DNA from: a virus
Length of the DNA stretch: 64,000 nucleotides
Reading direction: 5' to 3' (one strand)
IMG/VR virus record: IMGVR_UViG_3300042462_000099
Span: 1 to 64,000 of that record
Shown: in pieces, positions 35,068-64,000 of the stretch
How positions within the stretch are numbered: position 1 is the stretch's first letter
How the letters are laid out: the number at the start of each line of letters is the position of its first letter
The notes under the pieces: generated by a model
What the model was told of the DNA's origin: nothing
The model's input: only the letters and a program-made list of their open reading frames with translations
The model's database searches: none
Made by a program: the position numbers and the translations under genes

Positions 35068-38000
35068 CTAGATTGCACTTAGGGTTTGCGCTGACCAGCC
35101 TACATCCGTAGCAATTAAATAATCATAATCTTTTAACGTAAACATGGAATCTGAATCAATAATAACCTTATTTGTTCCAACATAACTCTTATAAATATCA
35201 GAAGGGTCTACTCCGTAGTAAGATTTTGAAGAAAGAACAAGAACTCCGTTCCATAATGCTGGGTACCAAAAAGTCCATGGGTACTCTCCTTGGGGAGAAT
35301 ATCTAACTCTAAACCAAAGTCTTTTATTTGTTTTTTGAACTTCTTGTAGGTTTGTTGATTGATAATAAGAAATTGTGTTCATCATCAATGGACCGTTTAT
35401 GTGAAGATATCCAGGAGTCCCATAGAAGTAAAGTAGTTCTGGGAAAGATATTCCAAGAAATGCCCACTCATCTATAGAAATAACTGGATTTGAGACAAGG
35501 GTTCCATTTAGATAAAATCCAACCCCATCCTCAAGTGCTCCAGTCTTTGCATTTATAGCATAGATCTTTGCACGACTACCATCTGGATTATTTGCAACTA
35601 GATAAAATTTAATGTGCTTGTTTGAAGCCTTAATCTCAAACACTTCAACTTCTGAAAAAGGAAATGTATCATCTGAATATTTAATGCATGCCTGAAGAAC
35701 CATAAGGTTATAGTCTGCAGATTTTGTTTTATTAAGTGGTATGGAAATACCACGATTAATATTTGGGTTGTTTTGCCCTCTTAGTTCGATACCGCTTCTT
35801 TTTGTTAGGTATAGATATGGAGAACTTCCTTTGTATATGGAGAATGGGTTATTAGATTTGTAGTCATAATAACTTCCAGTCTTTGTATAAGGATACATTG
35901 GTATTCCAAATCTTGTTCCTACGGCATTTGGAGATGTATCGTTTAATGCCTGAGAAGAGTATTGCAAAAATTTAAGCATAGGCTTTTTTATTTTAGAATC
36001 TTTAATAAAAAAGTCAAGATGTGTAACGATAGATATGTCATTTACGCTTGATGATTTTGGAGGATAGATGATTGAGTTATTAACAACTTCATACTTTGTA
36101 TTTATCCAGTCTGTGTCTGGATAGATAATTCCATCTTTAGCAATAGACTGAGTATTTTCAAAAAACAGATCAGGCTGATTATAAGAGGATGAGGAAAATT
36201 TAAAAGATATATATGACTTTAGTATTGAGTCTGTTGTGTCATAGGTATAAGTTTTAACTGCGTTATTTTTTAAATCATCATAATCATCATATCCAGTATA
36301 AAGATGATTATCTAATGAAGAATATTTCTGTGATATTGGAATTGAATATGTTTCGTATAAAGAAGCAATTGTTTCTGTTGTTCCTTCTACTGACACTCTT
36401 TCTCCATATTTCCAAAAACCCAAAGAAGTCTCACTCTGTTTTAACTTGCCTGGTGAATCGTAGTCTATATTAAACTGAATAAAATCAAGATTATAATATT
36501 CATCTCCTCTTGCATCTTTAACATATGTTGCTAAATTTGATAACGGTATTGAGTCTTCCCAATATCCATTAATATCTATACCTAGCCTAAAGGAATCAAA
36601 ATCTTGTTTTGGAAGAATTGTGCAACTTGCCATGTGGCTTAAAAGCCTATTGCCTGTAAGCGATGAATAGTTTATGGGTAAGCCAGTTTCATTAAAAAGA
36701 TCTTTTATCTTTAATGCATTTCTTGCATTACAAAATCCAAAAGCATATATATTTCCAGTAAAAGTGTTAACAAATGTTTTTGTTCCTCCAACATAAAGAG
36801 AAAGAGACCCAATATTACCAAAAAAAGAAGAAACGTTCTGTGCATAGTAGTTAGATAAAACCCTGATGTCTATTCCTACAGAAAAAATATCATTAACTGA
36901 AATATTGTTTGTAGACGTATACAGAATTTCTTCTTGTCCACCATAGTTAAGGCTGTACCTAACTCTACTGCCAACAAAATCTATTGAAAAATAATTACCA
37001 GAAATATCATCACTAATTTTAATTAAGCATTGAGTTCCTTCTGCTGTCTTTGCTTTAAATACTCCGTAAAGAATGTTAACTTCATCATTTAAAAAACTCA
37101 AAGAGTTATATCTTAAATATCCATTTTCTAAAGCCCAATCATTTGTTGGTCTAAACGTAATAAAGTTTTTAGACTCATTCTGTTCTGGTAAACATGAGGA
37201 AAAAAGACTTGATTCTGTTTTACTAGATAAAAATATTTCAGGAAGAGGATATTCTGGAACTGTCAACTTATTGTTATTAACAGAAAGATTATTTGAAATT
37301 CCTTGCGACCAAGTTCCAAGAGATGGGTATGAATAATTGTTTGCATAATTAGCAAAAGCATAGTCTACATAAACTGAAGAACCGCTATAAGCAGTATTAA
37401 TATTTTCTGGAAACTCAACTCCTTGTCCATAGACAAATCTTATCTTTCCAAGTTGATCGGATATCTCGTATGGATAAAGCCCAACACAGTCAATAGAAAT
37501 ATTTGGAATATCCTCATATGCGTAAAAACCAATCCAGTCTTGGTCTTTACCATTTAAATCAAGTTTATTTTGTGGAACATAAGATTCTTCTGTCAATAAC
37601 ACATCTATAACCTTTTCTCCATTTAGAGATAGTGTTGCTCTGTTCTTGCTAACAAAAAAATGAAACAGCATTGGTCTTCCCCACTCTGCAACATAGTGAG
37701 TTTGATAGTTAGATCCAATCTTAATGCCAACAAAATTTCCATCAACATAGATTCCATCTTCAGAGTTTAATGGTCCAACAATTCTTTTTCTATCGTATGT
37801 TTTAGAATTAATATTTGCCCAAAACTCTAGAGTATACTGATTGTTTTTACCAGACTGGTTTAAAAATCCGTTTGCAGGCAAGATTAAGGATGGGCTGCCA
37901 TTATTATAATAAATTTGAGTTGAGTTTTGTGAACCATAAACAATAGGAACTCCAAAGTTTTTTGCTTTTAAATTCATTGAGCCATTAAGCAAATAGTATC

Positions 38001-38709
38001 CTTTTTGATCTGATCTAGAATACGCAAAAGCCTCAATACCTTTTGTAATGGTTGTAGATATTGTTGTAGGTACTGTTACTACAGAACTACCTAAAGATTC
38101 TGAACTAAACTCTTCACACCATTGTCCGAAACTAAAACCATTAATTAAAACCTCTATATTGCTGTTACCTCCATCACCAAAATAATCAATTTCAAAGACA
38201 AGTCTTACTGTCACGGCGTCATCTGGAATTCTAAAGGTTTCTCCGATAAAAAGCCAAGAGTCAGTTATAGAGGTCTCAAAAGATTTTAATTTTTTAACAA
38301 CTGTTCCAGAAGCCTCATCATTATATTCATAACCAATTGAGAATGTAGAAGCATTTTGGCTTAATGATTTAAAGTATGTTCCTACAGCAAAAGTCTTTAA
38401 AGATTGATCAAGTTCTTTAAAGTTTTTTAAATCCTTGCTAACATATCTTGTTATTCCTTTAGCGTTTATGGCTAGTGGTCTTGCTTTTATTTTTGTTACA
38501 ATACTTGAAGGGAATGGAGCATCTTCTGTTACAAACAAGGTTTTTTGACTAGAGTCTATATTTTGGTCAGGATCTACATCCCAAAAGTTTAAACCTCTTT
38601 GTATTTCTGAAATTTGAGAAACGTAATCTGCTTTGTCATCTAAAGACCATAGGACAGTCGGTTGCTGTGCAAACACTTTTTCTGCATATAAATTTGAAGC
38701 AATAGACAT
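35068..38709 (-). CDS. Large LamG/concanavalin-like virion protein
   Basis: A 1213-residue protein of beta-sandwich (LamG, concanavalin-like) domains. The start SNLYAEKVFAQQPTVLWSLDD has the AxxPxxxWxLDD pattern of LamG-bearing tail proteins. At least two jelly-roll units are visible: about 265-420 (NQYTLEFWANINSK, then RPMLFHFFVSKNRATLSLNG) and about 510-660 (YGVFKAKTAEGTQCL, SVGIDIRVLSNYYAQN). A third region lies at about 985-1150. Such proteins bind glycans or decorate tails. It is upstream of the head genes. AGGAGG before the ATG at 38709. Confidence 0.75.
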   Translation of the reverse strand: MSIASNLYAEKVFAQQPTVLWSLDDKADYVSQISEIQRGLNFWDVDPDQNIDSSQKTLFVTEDAPFPSSIVTKIKARPLAINAKGITRYVSKDLKNFKELDQSLKTFAVGTYFKSLSQNASTFSIGYEYNDEASGTVVKKLKSFETSITDSWLFIGETFRIPDDAVTVRLVFEIDYFGDGGNSNIEVLINGFSFGQWCEEFSSESLGSSVVTVPTTISTTITKGIEAFAYSRSDQKGYYLLNGSMNLKAKNFGVPIVYGSQNSTQIYYNNGSPSLILPANGFLNQSGKNNQYTLEFWANINSKTYDRKRIVGPLNSEDGIYVDGNFVGIKIGSNYQTHYVAEWGRPMLFHFFVSKNRATLSLNGEKVIDVLLTEESYVPQNKLDLNGKDQDWIGFYAYEDIPNISIDCVGLYPYEISDQLGKIRFVYGQGVEFPENINTAYSGSSVYVDYAFANYANNYSYPSLGTWSQGISNNLSVNNNKLTVPEYPLPEIFLSSKTESSLFSSCLPEQNESKNFITFRPTNDWALENGYLRYNSLSFLNDEVNILYGVFKAKTAEGTQCLIKISDDISGNYFSIDFVGSRVRYSLNYGGQEEILYTSTNNISVNDIFSVGIDIRVLSNYYAQNVSSFFGNIGSLSLYVGGTKTFVNTFTGNIYAFGFCNARNALKIKDLFNETGLPINYSSLTGNRLLSHMASCTILPKQDFDSFRLGIDINGYWEDSIPLSNLATYVKDARGDEYYNLDFIQFNIDYDSPGKLKQSETSLGFWKYGERVSVEGTTETIASLYETYSIPISQKYSSLDNHLYTGYDDYDDLKNNAVKTYTYDTTDSILKSYISFKFSSSSYNQPDLFFENTQSIAKDGIIYPDTDWINTKYEVVNNSIIYPPKSSSVNDISIVTHLDFFIKDSKIKKPMLKFLQYSSQALNDTSPNAVGTRFGIPMYPYTKTGSYYDYKSNNPFSIYKGSSPYLYLTKRSGIELRGQNNPNINRGISIPLNKTKSADYNLMVLQACIKYSDDTFPFSEVEVFEIKASNKHIKFYLVANNPDGSRAKIYAINAKTGALEDGVGFYLNGTLVSNPVISIDEWAFLGISFPELLYFYGTPGYLHINGPLMMNTISYYQSTNLQEVQKTNKRLWFRVRYSPQGEYPWTFWYPALWNGVLVLSSKSYYGVDPSDIYKSYVGTNKVIIDSDSMFTLKDYDYLIATDVGWSAQTLSAI

Positions 38710-38733: not shown

Positions 38734-39261
38734 TACAATGCGGGTAAACCAACGTGGTGTTGTGTATCGTATTCCATCTTGAATTCCCCGAACTCCGTGC
38801 ACATAGTCTGGATTGTCTGGGAAGCAAAGAAGATCTCCTGGCTCAGGCTTATGAGATATACCTAATGCTGGGAAATATATATCTCCACCAGTATAGTCGT
38901 CATTAAGATAAAGAATTGTTGCAATATCATTTGGTCTATTCATATCATAATGCTCGTGCATGCCCTCACCTGGAGTAAACTTTGCAATATGTGTTTTTTC
39001 ATCTAAGAAAGGCTGAAATGGCCCTTCATAATTTTCAAGAACAAAATCATAAACCTTTTTAGCATACTCTTGCAAAACATCTAAAGAAGACTGATCATTT
39101 CTTTGTATTTCGTGATATGTATGTACTGTAAACTCTTTTTCGCCATTTCCATACTCAGTAAAAAGAAGTGTATGTGCTTTTGAGTATTCTGTAATAGACA
39201 TTGCCAAATTCTTTGGCATAAACTCTTTTACATATATTACTTTTGATTTTAAATCTTCCAT
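38731..39261 (-). CDS. 2OG-Fe(II) dioxygenase, prolyl 4-hydroxylase-like
   Basis: A 176-residue double-stranded beta-helix oxygenase. The iron triad is visible: H104 and D106 in EHYDMNRP, and H155 in DYVHGVRG. R165 in IRYTTPRWF would bind 2-oxoglutarate. ATILYLNDDYTGGDIYFP (113-130) is the typical P4H core strand pair. It would hydroxylate a protein side chain (Pro or Lys) with O2 and 2-oxoglutarate in the cytoplasm. It overlaps the reductase stop by 1 nt. A candidate substrate in this window is the collagen-like protein at 57772-58497 (inference). Confidence 0.88.
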   Translation of the reverse strand: MEDLKSKVIYVKEFMPKNLAMSITEYSKAHTLLFTEYGNGEKEFTVHTYHEIQRNDQSSLDVLQEYAKKVYDFVLENYEGPFQPFLDEKTHIAKFTPGEGMHEHYDMNRPNDIATILYLNDDYTGGDIYFPALGISHKPEPGDLLCFPDNPDYVHGVRGIQDGIRYTTPRWFTRIV

Positions 39262-41291
39262 TATTTCACCTTAATTTCGCAATAGTCTGTTGTGCAATAT
39301 GCTTCACCCTGAGCCTCAAGATTATCTACACCGTCGTAAATTGCTCCAAAGTCAATGTGCTTCAATTTGCCAATATAACCATTATACTCCTCTTCAGTAA
39401 TCTGAGTATATGGTTGCTGAGGATATGTATGATTTCCCATTGGTAGGAACGAAACAGCCTTCAATTGCCCTTCGTACATATGTAGTGCTGGAGCAACGTG
39501 CTTTGATTCTGTTTCCTTGTCAAAAGATAGTGTTACAGAAACTCCATTGTCTGACCAGTACTTCTGAGCAGTTGCAGCAAGGGCAATCTTTTCAAATAAT
39601 GTTACATCCTTTTCAGAACGTTTTTGTCCTGACTTAATTGGGAAATAAACTACAGATGTATTTGCTGAGACTACGTCTTTTTCAACGTTATAATTTGCTG
39701 CCTTGAATAAATGCAGCATTGGATCTGTATCACCAAAACGGACTGCACGTAAGAAGAATTCTCCTCCAGGACCCCAGTGAACTCCAGGAGTTGCACCAGA
39801 AAGAATTGATACTGATCCTGATGGCTTAACTGTTGTTACACGAATTGATTCACGAACACATAGCCATTCTGAATACTGGTGATCATAGTGACGGATCTTG
39901 TTATACCCTTCATCCATCCATTCACGAACTGCTGGCAAACCTTTTTGATCTGCAAATGATGCAATACCAGTAAGGGATGTACCAATACGACGATTACGTT
40001 GCATGATACCGTTTGTTTGTGGCCAGTGTGTTGGAAGAAGAGTGACAGTCTTGCCATATAGGTAAGCAAACTTTAATGTCTTGAGGAAGTCCTCCTTAGA
40101 TTCATGACGATTCAAGTGCACTTCTACAAGTGTACATAATTCATATGACTCTAATGGCTGCTCCGCACAAGGATTAAAGCCCATAACACGATAGTCTTTT
40201 CCATCTGCGGGATCTGCAAGACGACCATAATTACGAGCAACATCAAGCCAAATAAATCCTGGCTCTCCATTGTTAACAATTAGATCAGTATATTTTTCAT
40301 ATTCCATTCCAACTGTTGCAGAAATTGAGTTATTTGACATCCAAGCCCAACCTGGATTTTCTGGATCAAAAGAGTTACGCTCTGGAAAAACTTCAGCATT
40401 TTTAAGATTAATAAAATCTTCGTCTCCTGCTGCTCCTAAAGCAAGAGTTGCAGAACGACGAACATTGCCAGAAACAACACATGTACCAATAAGGTTAATT
40501 ATGTCTGTGATAGCACGAGAATCTAAGGTTTCTCCTACTCTACCGCCAATTACACGATCTACCTGTGTATGTAGTTGAATAAGGGGTGCTGGACCGCTGG
40601 CGACCCCTCCAAAGCCTTTAATGGGTGCTCCTAGAGGTCTGATAAGGTCGTAGTTAAACTTTTGAATAGACTGATTTGGTCTTAGGTAAGAATTAAGAAG
40701 AAGTCTTACTGATTCAACCCAGCCTTCACGAGTGTCTGGAATTTCGAACACCTGTTCTGGTTCTGTTGGAGCAGAGATTAAGAAATTCTTTTCCTGTCCT
40801 ACTGTATCAAACCCTACTCCGATACCAAGCATCAAAGCATCCATTACCCAAGCAAACAAGGCTCCTGGATCATTCTTATCAAGGTCCTTTGTAGAAACCA
40901 TTGCACAGTTTTGGAGTGCTGCTGAGTTCTTCTTCTCCATTGTCATTGGTGTACCAAAAGTCCACATACCTCTTCCTGGTGGTGTCCACTTTAGTTCAAA
41001 CATTCTTTGGAATGCTTCTTGTGCAGACTTCTGAGCCTTGTAGTCATTCCATGGTAGACGGTTTTCTTTAGCATGGTTCTTTTGAACTGAATACATACCC
41101 TCGATTACACGACGACAAACTTCGTGCCATCTTTCCTTAGTTCCATCTTCTTTCATGCGAGAATACGTACGAATAAAAGTAATTTCTCCAAGTGAATTTT
41201 CTGCTGCATCCTTAAACCCGAATGGGCTTTCTTGGCTCTTGTACTTTTCTACGAAGTCCTCTGGAAGTTTAAAACTAAAAAAATCTGACAT
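39261..41291 (-). CDS. Adenosylcobalamin-dependent class II ribonucleotide reductase
   Basis: A 676-residue monomeric class II reductase that makes dNTPs from ribonucleotides. The cysteines are visible: C129 and C386 (active-site pair), C375 in NPCAEQ (radical site, with E377), and C666 and C671 at the C-terminal tail CTTDYC. The spacings C375-C386 and C666-C671 equal those of the Lactobacillus leichmannii enzyme (as I recall). VKPSGSVSILSGATPGVHWG (488-507) is the conserved phosphate-binding loop. A TGGTATACT promoter and an AAAGGACG site precede it. It makes phage dNTP supply depend on host vitamin B12. Confidence 0.95.
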   Translation of the reverse strand: MSDFFSFKLPEDFVEKYKSQESPFGFKDAAENSLGEITFIRTYSRMKEDGTKERWHEVCRRVIEGMYSVQKNHAKENRLPWNDYKAQKSAQEAFQRMFELKWTPPGRGMWTFGTPMTMEKKNSAALQNCAMVSTKDLDKNDPGALFAWVMDALMLGIGVGFDTVGQEKNFLISAPTEPEQVFEIPDTREGWVESVRLLLNSYLRPNQSIQKFNYDLIRPLGAPIKGFGGVASGPAPLIQLHTQVDRVIGGRVGETLDSRAITDIINLIGTCVVSGNVRRSATLALGAAGDEDFINLKNAEVFPERNSFDPENPGWAWMSNNSISATVGMEYEKYTDLIVNNGEPGFIWLDVARNYGRLADPADGKDYRVMGFNPCAEQPLESYELCTLVEVHLNRHESKEDFLKTLKFAYLYGKTVTLLPTHWPQTNGIMQRNRRIGTSLTGIASFADQKGLPAVREWMDEGYNKIRHYDHQYSEWLCVRESIRVTTVKPSGSVSILSGATPGVHWGPGGEFFLRAVRFGDTDPMLHLFKAANYNVEKDVVSANTSVVYFPIKSGQKRSEKDVTLFEKIALAATAQKYWSDNGVSVTLSFDKETESKHVAPALHMYEGQLKAVSFLPMGNHTYPQQPYTQITEEEYNGYIGKLKHIDFGAIYDGVDNLEAQGEAYCTTDYCEIKVK

Positions 41292-61554: not shown

Positions 61555-61743
61555 TCAAACCTTTTTAGCCTTACCTTGTATCCAACCTGAGTGGATACCA
61601 GCAAGTGGTGCGTCTATATTGATAGCCGTACCTATTGGTAGCACTTCCGCATAGCGGTCAATGAAGGATAGTACATTCTCCTTGTTAGGAAATTCCATCT
61701 TCTTAGTAGTACCTGTAACGCTTGTTAGTGTTGCTGTTATCAT
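61555..61743 (-). CDS. Small protein, paralogue of 62460-62636
   Basis: A 62-residue protein starting MITATLTSVTGTTKKMEFPN. The same skeleton (MIT-TLTS--G-TKKM-F) starts the plus-strand gene at 62460, so the two are diverged copies in opposite orientation. Function is unknown. It is the last gene of a minus-strand operon and ends at a terminator. Confidence 0.65.
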   Translation of the reverse strand: MITATLTSVTGTTKKMEFPNKENVLSFIDRYAEVLPIGTAINIDAPLAGIHSGWIQGKAKKV

Positions 61744-61863
61744 TTATTTACCTCCTAATATAAAACATAGTGCTATTGCTATAACTACTCCGATAAACGC
61801 TCCTATTGGTGCGTAATCAGCGTTCTCATCTAACCAATCAATCATATATGTAAATGGGTTCAT
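61744..61863 (-). CDS. Very small membrane protein
   Basis: A 39-residue protein with one transmembrane segment (APIGAFIGVVIAIALCFILGGK) after an acidic N-terminus. It is directly adjacent to the next gene. The TAA is followed at once by ATG. Possible superinfection or membrane-acting factor (inference). Confidence 0.6.
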   Translation of the reverse strand: MNPFTYMIDWLDENADYAPIGAFIGVVIAIALCFILGGK

Positions 61864-61864
61864 C

Positions 61865-61984
61865 TTAGTATGTATCCTCTACGCCTAATTCATAGGCTTT
61901 GTTTAGTAGTTCAATAAGGGCTGGTGTTACATCAAATCCGTTAGCAGTAATCATCTCTGCGAGAGTGTCCTTTGGGTACATCAT
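61865..61984 (-). CDS. Very small helical protein
   Basis: A 39-residue protein (MMYPKDTLAEMITANGFDVT...). The start is 61984 or the next ATG at 61981; AAAGGATAA is the ribosome site. It is the first gene after the damage-type minus-strand promoter. No function is visible. Confidence 0.55.
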   Translation of the reverse strand: MMYPKDTLAEMITANGFDVTPALIELLNKAYELGVEDTY

Positions 61985-62015: not shown

Positions 62016-62038
62016 AGTATAGCAGGATAGACTGACAA
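62016..62038 (-). promoter_or_regulatory. PafBC/RecA-independent-damage-type promoter (minus)
   Basis: Minus strand: TTGTCAGTC, 8-nt spacer, TATACT. It fits tTGTCRGTG-N8-TAnnnT and stands before the small minus-strand operon 61984-61555. Confidence 0.65.
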
Positions 62039-62046
62039 AAGCAACT

Positions 62047-62057
62047 CGACACGCCGT
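62047..62057 (+). repeat. CGACACGCCGT motif, copy 1
   Basis: Eleven-base element shared with 63357-63367 in the second regulatory module. Role unknown; binding site for a regulator is possible. Confidence 0.6.
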
Positions 62058-62109
62058 ATATAGGGCCTATGTCTATGTGATATACACCACATCGATCCCC
62101 TAGAAAAAG

Positions 62110-62133
62110 TTATCCACAGGGTGATGTGTATAA
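62110..62133. promoter_or_regulatory. Paired inverted DnaA boxes, module 1
   Basis: TTATCCACA (62110-62118) and, inverted, TTATACACA (62133-62125), 6 nt apart. Both fit the DnaA consensus TTWTNCACA exactly. The pair may be a replication origin element or a DnaA-sensing promoter region. Confidence 0.75.
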
Positions 62134-62154
62134 GTAATGTGATGTACCTCATAT

Positions 62155-62168
62155 GTGACTAATCTCAC
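62155..62168. promoter_or_regulatory. 14-bp palindromic operator, copy 1
   Basis: GTGACTAATCTCAC, the inverse of the GTGAGATTA(A/G)TCAC type found at 63340 and 63461. Probably a phage repressor or activator site upstream of the early promoter. Confidence 0.6.
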
Positions 62169-62202
62169 AATGTCCGATTTACCCTATTTATACCCCTCAA
62201 AA

Positions 62203-62224
62203 TGTCAGACCCCCCTGCTACAAT
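62203..62224 (+). promoter_or_regulatory. PafBC-type promoter (plus), module 1
   Basis: TGTCAGAC, 8-nt spacer (C-run then TGC), TACAAT. It precedes the first early gene at 62281. Confidence 0.65.
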
Positions 62225-62280
62225 TACAGTATAAAGAAAAACAAGAGGTAAAGAAATCCTCTAAAGAAAGGTGGTCTAAA

Positions 62281-62460
62281 ATGACTACACTAACAATAAC
62301 AAAATGCGTTGAGCATAACCCTATGAAATCTGCTATCTCCGAAATTGGTGATGAGCAATTTACTTTCTGCCAAGATTGTGAAAATAACATTGAGCGTTGG
62401 TATAACGATACCGACCCTGAGCGTCTGCCTATGTGGACAGATTGGAAGGTGTCTAAGTAA
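62281..62460 (+). CDS. Small Cys-containing early protein
   Basis: A 59-residue protein (MTTLTITKCVEHNPM, later FCQDCENNIERWY). One C near the start and a CxxC pair could bind zinc. The ATG at 62281 has an AAAGGTGG site. The longer frame back to 62155 runs through the promoter and is rejected. First gene of the early operon. Confidence 0.65.
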   Translation: MTTLTITKCVEHNPMKSAISEIGDEQFTFCQDCENNIERWYNDTDPERLPMWTDWKVSK

Positions 62461-62636
62461 TGATTACTCTTACACTTACATCTTACAATGGTAACACTAA
62501 GAAAATGCCTTTCGTTACCGAACAAAAATTGCGTGAGTTTATCTCTGCGCTACCTTCACAATTAAATAAATCAACAACTCTAAAAGTAGAGTGCGACCTG
62601 TTAGCAATTAACGGAATTATTAGAGGGGAAAAATAA
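62460..62636 (+). CDS. Small early protein, paralogue of 61555-61743
   Basis: A 58-residue protein starting MITLTLTSYNGNTKKMPF. The ATG overlaps the previous stop (TAATG). It shares its skeleton with the minus-strand gene at 61555. Function is unknown. Confidence 0.6.
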   Translation: MITLTLTSYNGNTKKMPFVTEQKLREFISALPSQLNKSTTLKVECDLLAINGIIRGEK

Positions 62637-62801
62637 ATGAGTATTTGGACTAAGTTCGCTACTGTAAGCGATTACCCTAAAGGCTTAATGAACCTATGCC
62701 CTTGCGGTCAGGTTGTATTAGCCCCCGCCCTGTATCACGAAGGGCAACCTTATTGGGAAAATCCTAATAAGTGTAAAGAATTATTCGAAGGAGTAAAATA
62801 A
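62637..62801 (+). CDS. Small early protein
   Basis: A 54-residue protein with CPCG (21-24) and a late C, possibly a zinc knuckle. The ATG directly follows the previous TAA. Function is unknown. Confidence 0.55.
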   Translation: MSIWTKFATVSDYPKGLMNLCPCGQVVLAPALYHEGQPYWENPNKCKELFEGVK

Positions 62802-62965
62802 TGAGTACCTATGTAAGCCTCGCCTCTGTATGTGGCGCAACATCAGCAAGCGTTGATGTCTATGACTTAGACCTTAACCCTCACGGCGTTATCTGTTGCG
62901 ATAACTGTGAGTCAATTATTCTATGCCGTAAGGCTTGGGACTTTCTCTATAAGGTAGGTAAGTAA
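62801..62965 (+). CDS. Small Cys-rich early protein
   Basis: A 54-residue protein with five cysteines (C11, then ICCDNCESIILC at about 31-42) that would bind a metal. TAATG overlaps at both ends indicate coupled translation. Confidence 0.55.
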   Translation: MSTYVSLASVCGATSASVDVYDLDLNPHGVICCDNCESIILCRKAWDFLYKVGK

Positions 62966-63111
62966 TGATAAAAGATGAATTGCGTGATGAAGCAGTTAAA
63001 TTAGCAAAAGAAAAATACGGTGATAACTGGTTAGCAGGTCTATGGGGTTGCGCTGGTGTATTGCTAACAGAAAAAGATTTTAAAGTTATAATTAGCGTAA
63101 TGGAGAAATAA
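62965..63111 (+). CDS. Small helical early protein
   Basis: A 48-residue protein, charged then hydrophobic (DNWLAGLWGCAGVLLTEKDF). Starts at an overlap with the previous stop. Function is unknown. Confidence 0.5.
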   Translation: MIKDELRDEAVKLAKEKYGDNWLAGLWGCAGVLLTEKDFKVIISVMEK

Positions 63112-63112
63112 A

Positions 63113-63202
63113 ATGAAAACACTTCAAGAAAAACTTGACGCAGTAGCGTTAGAATTAGAGCCAGTACTTTGGGATTTACTAAATGAAATTGAGGAAAAAT
63201 AA
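63113..63202 (+). CDS. Very small acidic protein
   Basis: A 29-residue acidic helix (MKTLQEKLDAVALELEPVLW). It lies between translated neighbours with a GGAGAAATA site. Tentative. Confidence 0.4.
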   Translation: MKTLQEKLDAVALELEPVLWDLLNEIEEK

Positions 63203-63295
63203 ATGAGTAACTTTTTTATTAGCGGTAACGCATTGTTTTGGTTTTCTTTTATTTGCTTATTCTATGGATCTTATTTATTCGTGAAGGGCGAATAA
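63203..63295 (+). CDS. Very small membrane protein
   Basis: A 30-residue protein with one transmembrane segment (NALFWFSFICLFYGSYLFV). Its ATG directly follows the previous stop; GAGGAAAAA is the site. Tentative function: membrane-acting early peptide. Confidence 0.45.
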   Translation: MSNFFISGNALFWFSFICLFYGSYLFVKGE

Positions 63296-63312
63296 AAAAA
63301 CCTAGCAAAAAG

Positions 63313-63334
63313 TTATCCACAGGGGTGTGTATAA
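63313..63334. promoter_or_regulatory. Paired inverted DnaA boxes, module 2
   Basis: TTATCCACA (63313-63321) and inverted TTATACACA (63334-63326), 4 nt apart. It repeats the arrangement of module 1, including the preceding AAAAAG. Confidence 0.75.
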
Positions 63335-63339
63335 CTAAT

Positions 63340-63353
63340 GTGAGATTAATCAC
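63340..63353. promoter_or_regulatory. 14-bp palindromic operator, copy 2
   Basis: GTGAGATTAATCAC, next to the DnaA boxes. Confidence 0.6.
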
Positions 63354-63356
63354 ATA

Positions 63357-63367
63357 CGACACGCCGT
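63357..63367 (+). repeat. CGACACGCCGT motif, copy 2
   Basis: Second copy of the element at 62047-62057. Confidence 0.6.
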
Positions 63368-63375
63368 GTTTAGAT

Positions 63376-63404
63376 TTGACTTTTTGACATTTCTTTGCTA
63401 TACT
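63376..63404 (+). promoter_or_regulatory. Sigma-70/A-type promoter
   Basis: TTGACT (63376-63381), 17-nt spacer, TGC and TATACT (63399-63404). It lies between the operators and could drive the genes from 63557. Confidence 0.75.
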
Positions 63405-63438
63405 TACATAGTAAGAACAATTAAATAAAGACATTAGC

Positions 63439-63496
63439 CAATGAGCCTAAGCAAATAAGTGTGAGATAAATCACAATGAGCCTTAGCAAATAAGTG
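63439..63496 (+). repeat. Tandem 23-bp repeat with operator between
   Basis: CAATGAGCCT(A/T)AGCAAATAAG plus TG occurs at 63439-63461 and 63474-63496 (period 35). The spacer holds the third operator, GTGAGATAAATCAC (63461-63474). No protein is encoded in this stretch as far as I can see; it is 260 bp of regulatory DNA. Confidence 0.7.
63461..63474. promoter_or_regulatory. 14-bp palindromic operator, copy 3
   Basis: GTGAGATAAATCAC, embedded between the two direct repeats. Confidence 0.6.
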
Positions 63497-63503
63497 GCAA
63501 AAA

Positions 63504-63525
63504 TGTCAGCCCCCCCTGATAGGAT
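63504..63525 (+). promoter_or_regulatory. PafBC-type promoter (plus), module 2
   Basis: TGTCAGCC, 8-nt spacer (C-run then TGA), TAGGAT. It shares the AATGTCAG-C-run-TG core with the promoter at 62203. Confidence 0.65.
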
Positions 63526-63556: not shown

Positions 63557-63676
63557 ATGACACTTGAAGAATACAAGCAAATGGTAGAGGCTCAACGCCT
63601 TGCCTCATTAGGTAAAGGCTTAGAAGCCCTACTGAAATCAAAAGCAATACAAGAACAAATGAAAGAAGGCAAATAA
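63557..63676 (+). CDS. Very small helical early protein
   Basis: A 39-residue helical protein (MTLEEYKQMVEAQRLASLGK...). The AGAAAGGTCAG leader holds a site. First gene after module 2; its stop overlaps the next start. Confidence 0.55.
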   Translation: MTLEEYKQMVEAQRLASLGKGLEALLKSKAIQEQMKEGK

Positions 63677-63885
63677 TGTCAGCAAATGTTTATACAATCG
63701 AAAACCTACTTGTAGGAAAAACTTATCACTCAAAAACTCTAAAGGGTGAAATTATCTCAGCAGAAAAGTCTGATGTCTGGTACGCAGATTGCGAGTCTTA
63801 TCGTGTTAAGGTACGCCCTCACTATCCCTCAGTATTTAATCTAAAAGATACATACCGAATACTTGCCGTAAAGGTTGGTGACTAA
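63676..63885 (+). CDS. Small beta-rich early protein
   Basis: A 69-residue protein (SANVYTIENLLVGKTYHSKT, YRVKVRPHYPSVFNLKDTYR). Coupled by TAATG to the preceding gene. It may be a small SH3-like beta-barrel; function is unknown. Confidence 0.6.
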   Translation: MSANVYTIENLLVGKTYHSKTLKGEIISAEKSDVWYADCESYRVKVRPHYPSVFNLKDTYRILAVKVGD

Positions 63886-64000
63886 ATGATAAACTCAGTT
63901 ATGTCGATACCCTGCGAGGAATGCCACTCAACAGGTTTAATCTTTTTTGGCGATAATGATAATTTTGATGTCGAAACTTGTGAATGCGATTTTGGCATTG
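63886..64000 (+). CDS. Zinc-knuckle protein, 5' part (cut by window end)
   Basis: Begins right after the previous stop: MINSVMSIPCEECHSTGLIF, then CECDFG. CxxC-type knuckles like DnaJ zinc repeats. Incomplete. Confidence 0.5.
   Translation, partial: MINSVMSIPCEECHSTGLIFFGDNDNFDVETCECDFGI

Follow-up and report, generated by a model that had tools for sequence, protein, structure and literature searches.

The early module of this phage is likely to be driven by host PafBC-type promoters, which would be read by the host RNA polymerase together with PafBC, and single-stranded DNA (ssDNA) arising during infection would raise their transcription. PafBC is known as a bacterial repair-gene switch. 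The window, that is, the whole stretch of DNA that was analyzed, comprised 64,000 nucleotides (nt) of a 71,880-bp virus record. Three sites of the form TGTCAG, two bases, 8 nt, and TAnnnT had been marked in it by the earlier note, and all three were found (Table 1). Only the minus-strand coordinate had to be corrected: the site runs from 62037 to 62016, and the preceding T had been counted in at 62038.

Table 1. Features of the motif cluster, by position in the window or, beyond its end, in the record
Feature	Position	Strand	Remarks
Small ORFs (62, 39, 39 amino acids [aa])	61555..61984	-	downstream of minus-strand promoter; one tested, without family match
Candidate PafBC-type promoter TGTCAG-tctatcctgc-TATACT	62016..62037	-	leftward small-gene operon; also fits TTGCTT-N17-TATACT; identical copy in phage relative G002
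Recurring CGACACGCC	62047, 63357		in window
Recurring CGACACGCC	64641		in record
DnaA box TTATCCACA	62110..62118	+	perfect match
CRP-type palindrome TGTGA-N6-TCACA	62154..62169		pattern match
Candidate PafBC-type promoter TGTCAG-acccccctgc-TACAAT	62203..62224	+	no visible -35; rightward small-gene operon from 62281; identical copy in G002
Small ORFs (59, 58, 54, 54, 48, 29, 30 aa)	62281..63295	+	downstream of 62203 promoter; five tested, 0 Pfam matches
DnaA box TTATCCACA	63313..63321	+	perfect match
CRP-type palindrome TGTGA-N6-TCACA	63339..63354		pattern match
Ordinary sigma-A-type promoter TTGACT-N17-TATACT	63376..63404	+	upstream of 63504 site
CRP-type palindrome TGTGA-N6-TCACA	63460..63475		pattern match
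Candidate PafBC-type promoter TGTCAG-ccccccctga-TAGGAT	63504..63525	+	no visible -35; operon from 63557; near-identical copy in G002
Small ORFs running past window end	63557..64000	+	downstream of 63504 promoter
DnaA box TTATCCACA	64611		beyond window; perfect match
CRP-type palindromes	64658, 66190, 69117, 70420, 71845		beyond window; pattern match
Further promoter-like sites	64723, 66357, 67586, 67855, 68565, 69198, 70514		beyond window; motif match

Across the window, the pattern TGTCRG-N10-TAnnnT gave five exact matches against 1.1 expected, and since 1 of 100 shuffles also reached five, the window alone is just moderately significant and suggestive. Two matches were set aside. The one at 59601-59580 lies inside a coding sequence and is probably no promoter, and the one at 63677-63698 coincides with a gene start (ATG TCA GCA...), probably by chance, and scored -5.86 on the host spacer matrix described below. 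The three noted sites are exactly the plausible promoters within the window. In the full record, the strict motif occurred 12 times, compared to 0 times for the reversed pattern. Eleven of the 12 matches fell in the last 9.9 kb (61,990-71,880); for this stretch, 500 runs of a second-order Markov simulation averaged 0.17 matches, and none gave more than 2. When hexamers at a 10-nt spacing to TAnnnT were counted in this region, TGTCAG was found 11 times and any other hexamer at most 3 times. Ten sites are promoter-like, namely those at 62037 (minus strand), 62203, and 63504 plus seven beyond the window; they are located at promoter distance from gene starts and on the transcribed strand.

According to published work, the mycobacterial consensus is tTGTCRgtg-8 nt-TannnT (PMC5656591). 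PafBC is activated by ssDNA and enables the sigma-A polymerase to use promoters in which a -26 element replaces the -35 box; this is termed sigma adaptation, and the structure places PafB on the -26 element (PMC11804915). The phage sites share with the PafBC-dependent promoters (RecA-NDp, recA P1) of mycobacteria and other actinobacteria the tTGTCRG core, the 2 + 8 nt to TAnnnT, the R position, the G/C preference after the core, and the dispensable -35. They differ from them in being phage-borne, in their number (about ten in one module), in the lack of a LexA box, and in their better -10 boxes. The motif type proposed in the earlier note thus held up: its consensus was matched exactly and was regained from relatives by hexamer enrichment. 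At the level of sequence, the assignment of the sites to the PafBC motif is strongly supported.

The search of related phages for the same motif, suggested in the earlier note, gave matches in the freshwater relatives. IMG/VR contains 387 relatives of the module's DUF932 protein, and 80 of their loci (1.26 Mb) were read. In these loci, 591 forward sites had TGTCAG and TAnnnT at N10, compared to 2 to 5 at N9 or N11. When all hexamers located 10 nt upstream of TAnnnT were counted, TGTCAG (32-fold) and TGTCGG (19-fold) were the top two, and the hexamers behind them were far less enriched. Because the loci are related, these counts are not independent; the sites comprise 487 distinct 78-mers. In 77 of 81 loci, a TGTCRG-N10 site precedes the start codon of the DUF932 gene by 51 to 59 nt; the core of the other four is one base off (TGTCAC, TGTCTG), which weighs against the PafBC reading. 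Across the 58 distinct DUF932 upstream regions, position 5 is occupied by either A or G and the spacer is free to vary, while the core is fixed. The sites show what characterizes a PafBC promoter: a TGTCRG core whose fifth position is R, 10 nt (2 + 8) to TAnnnT, and no need for a -35. Freshwater phage relatives had 6 to 15 motif matches per genome. When IMG/VR was scanned with a narrower version of the motif, at least 119 stretches came up; among the matches listed, 118 of 119 share genes with this record and so do not speak for use by unrelated phages.

The same regions bear on the question of whether these could be ordinary sigma-A promoters, with the TGTCRG box being incidental or a minor extra. 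TTGACA-N17/18 promoters are enriched there too, the DUF932 promoter often has TTGCAT or TTGACT at N17-18, and in 68 of the 805 TTGAC[A/T]-N16-19 sites counted, TGTCRG is found where the PafBC box would lie. However, it is TGTCRG that is conserved and the N10 spacing that is exact, while a good -35 is missing at most sites: only 83 of the 487 unique sites agree with TTGACA in at least 5 of its 6 positions (N16-18). We therefore regard purely sigma-A-type promoters as quite unlikely. It counts against the PafBC reading that some individual sites do have a -35-like element at N17-N18 (68565, 69198, and 62037), and sigma-A alone may serve these at a low level.

The phage is placed near the Stanwilliamsviridae of Streptomyces by protein comparison. 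Its portal (47% identity), DnaE-like polymerase (54%), and DUF932 protein (52%) resemble theirs, and the homologous portal and DnaE-like polymerase come together with a counterpart of the terminal-repeat module, as is characteristic of this family. In Streptomyces phage Yaboi, the DUF932 and phrog_1392 genes lie inside a 12,432-bp terminal repeat that is identical at both ends, and their order is the same as in this phage, the record of which is a fragment. The modules of Yaboi and Coruscant both have DUF932 and phrog_1392 in this order and, like the one described here, contain many small genes of unknown function. Judged by this gene content and order, the motif cluster is homologous to the terminal-repeat module found in the Streptomyces relatives. 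By analogy with other phages, its genes would be early, which agrees with the earlier note. BLASTN of the 60- to 64-kb region against named phages gave 0 matches. Elsewhere in the window, a class II ribonucleotide reductase (39261-41291) is encoded beside a protein of 1213 aa that had no match in PHROGs (35068-38709).

The Streptomyces relatives differ from this phage in their promoters. TGTCRG-N10 sites are absent from the modules of Yaboi and Coruscant, which have TTGACA/T-N17/18 sites instead, and the six Streptomyces phages contained 0 to 3 motif matches per genome, overall no more than the reversed control. That these relatives do without the motif, when PafBC is to be expected in Streptomyces, speaks against the PafBC reading.

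The metagenomes of the relatives are presumably largely freshwater, and the record has a GC content of ~38%. Together with the actinobacteria-infecting phage relatives, habitat and low GC content point to the low-GC freshwater order Nanopelagicales as the probable host. Named Nanopelagicales genomes were picked by a 16S pattern scan. An adjacent pair of WYL proteins was detected in 7 of the 7 genomes tested, with matches to mycobacterial PafB and PafC of 7P5X at 2e-35 and 5e-29 and a match to HTH_PafC at 5.6e-31. PafB/PafC, for which the earlier note had proposed a search in the host, is thus present in every tested genome of the order to which the host probably belongs. In the loci read, pafB-pafC directly follows trmI and precedes tatC, and no proteasome or pupylation genes lie between, as if pafBC had been retained after loss of the proteasome cluster.

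Nanopelagicales damage genes carry the element as well. In the host genomes read, TGTCRG-N10-TAnnnT is located upstream of recA and of the DUF6504-dnaE2 cassette, with a LexA box directly after it, and this fusion of motif and LexA box was found in 116 of 151 Nanopelagicales genomes (reversed control, 0). These recA and dnaE2 promoters have the core and the spacing in common with the phage sites, and several share CCTGCTA beside the -10. Columns left free in the pattern also agree between host and phage: the core is followed in both by a T and then by G/C-G/C, and a G stands two bases before the -10. On a matrix built from the host spacers, the phage sites scored above all 2000 column-permuted controls, by a small margin (1.42 versus 1.31 for the best control). 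In contrast to the phage sites, the host promoters are directly joined by a LexA box (TCGAAC-N4-GTTCG), and their -10 reads TACCTT or TATTTT. The phage -10s are more TATAAT-like than the host ones, the LexA box CGAAC-N4-GTTCG was not found in the 71,880-bp record, and the phage sites thus lack the feature that marks an SOS/LexA-controlled promoter. Since the phage has better -10 boxes and no counterpart of the LexA operator overlapping the host sites, LexA should not repress the phage sites.

The motif is about 20-fold denser in the phage (12 in 72 kb) than in the host (10 to 14 per 1.3 to 1.5 Mb). Such a density could be expected if the sites were mainly decoys, drawing PafBC and polymerase off the host repair genes and thereby dampening the host response. 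The phage sites, however, lie on the transcribed strand at promoter distance from gene starts, and PafBC binds no DNA without polymerase (PMC11804915), which makes a pure decoy unlikely; a mainly decoy role is in our view extremely improbable. As a separate observation, a stretch of IMCC19121 (Nanopelagicales; G016:C1:821000-827000) carries, within 2.6 kb, six TGTCAG-N10-TAnnnT sites, several of which form back-to-back pairs CTGACAATTTGTCAG that drive divergent small genes. This stretch is possibly a mobile island using PafBC.

If host PafBC reads the phage promoters, the following sequence of events can be proposed. The host RNA polymerase, carrying the housekeeping sigma factor, would, together with host PafBC, recognize TGTCRG as a -26 element and TAnnnT as a -10 without a -35, and the roughly ten sites would drive the small genes of the early, terminal-repeat-like module. 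PafBC would supply some basal activity and would be switched on by ssDNA from infection, that is, from DNA entry, nuclease attack, replication, or breakdown of the host DNA. Phage early transcription would then rise as the host senses broken DNA. We infer the membership of this particular host in the Nanopelagicales, the early expression, and the activation of PafBC by infection; damage-triggered activation in the course of infection is plausible. It also speaks against this mechanism that PafBC needs activation, which would be odd for the first genes expressed unless the basal activity suffices. At recA P1, pafBC-dependent activity was observed even without damage (PMC5656591).

Which protein acts on the sites was approached through the phage gene content. 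A WYL-domain protein was found in none of 13 phage records, and no sigma region 4 above the cutoff was detected in the phages tested. Candidates for a phage sigma factor were limited to subthreshold fragments and were rejected. Given that neither a WYL protein nor a clear sigma factor was found in the phages tested, host PafBC is the likely activator. Alternatively, a phage-encoded adaptor could read TGTCRG and redirect the host polymerase, with the likeness to PafBC being due to mimicry or convergence. An activator box in place of the -35 at a fixed spacing from the -10 would fit such an adaptor equally well, and the early-module proteins are mostly without a known family. A precedent is provided by phage T4, in which MotA and AsiA appropriate sigma at middle promoters; there, too, an adaptor box stands in place of the -35 before a normal -10, but the adaptor is phage-supplied, whereas here it is apparently host-supplied. 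Besides the missing WYL protein, it argues against a phage adaptor that the Streptomyces relatives have the same module without the motif and that the phage and host elements have exactly the same core, R position, and spacing and the same flanking preferences, which is easiest to understand if one protein reads both. We consider a phage adaptor unlikely.

A different host regulator could also be responsible, for instance ClgR, for which binding to the mycobacterial recA P1 region was reported (cited in PMC5656591). However, P1 activity was lost upon deletion of pafBC in M. smegmatis (PMC5656591), and it is PafB that sits on the -26 element in the structure (PMC11804915). A reader other than PafBC in the host is thus very unlikely.

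One part of the earlier proposal, a link to prophage induction, found no support. No integrase was found in 11 phage records, which makes prophage induction unlikely, and the nearest characterized relatives found are the Stanwilliamsviridae, which are known as lytic phages. Control of phage genes by host damage signaling, as proposed here, is known from temperate phages, for example coliphage 186 (tum) and GIL01, in which phage genes are under host LexA control. There, LexA keeps the genes repressed until RecA relieves them, whereas the sites described here would bind an activator and belong to phages in which no integrase was found.

The intergenic regions with the candidate promoters contain further elements. 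Eight perfect CRP-type palindromes are present in the record, all in the early module, compared to ~0.1 expected. Each relative tested had three to eight of them, the six Streptomyces phages together had one, and the host genomes had 0 to 1 each. A Crp-family protein is encoded by the probable host and was found in none of the phages, and the palindromes could be bound by host Crp or by an unknown phage regulator. The first three intergenic regulatory regions contain one perfect DnaA box each, and in the 80 relatives 409 such boxes were counted versus ~19 expected. A third element, CGACACGCC, recurs in three regions and contains GACAC, a putative WhiA site. It or a similar sequence closely precedes several PafBC sites at recA and dnaE2 in the host; as a host signature it was rejected, since it occurs at control level in host genomes. 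The distances of all three elements to the PafBC sites vary.

In the literature covered by our search, which comprised few subscription papers, we found no description of PafBC use by phages. We tentatively suggest, as something that may quite possibly hold, that in a widespread lineage of freshwater actinophages the whole early module was rewired from sigma-A to the ssDNA-sensing PafBC. The ssDNA of infection would then create a feed-forward loop that ties early transcription to host damage and possibly to cAMP and DnaA status. If this is true, the host alarm becomes an on-switch for the phage, whose early genes would be tuned to the state of the host DNA without a phage regulator. Damage, such as that by sunlight in surface lakes or by nuclease defense, would be predicted to alter the outcome of infection. 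The phages would also offer hundreds of naturally occurring PafBC promoter variants, which would be useful for defining the element, and the promoters would provide a possible reason for a pafBC-centered coevolution of the genome-reduced Nanopelagicales hosts and their phages.
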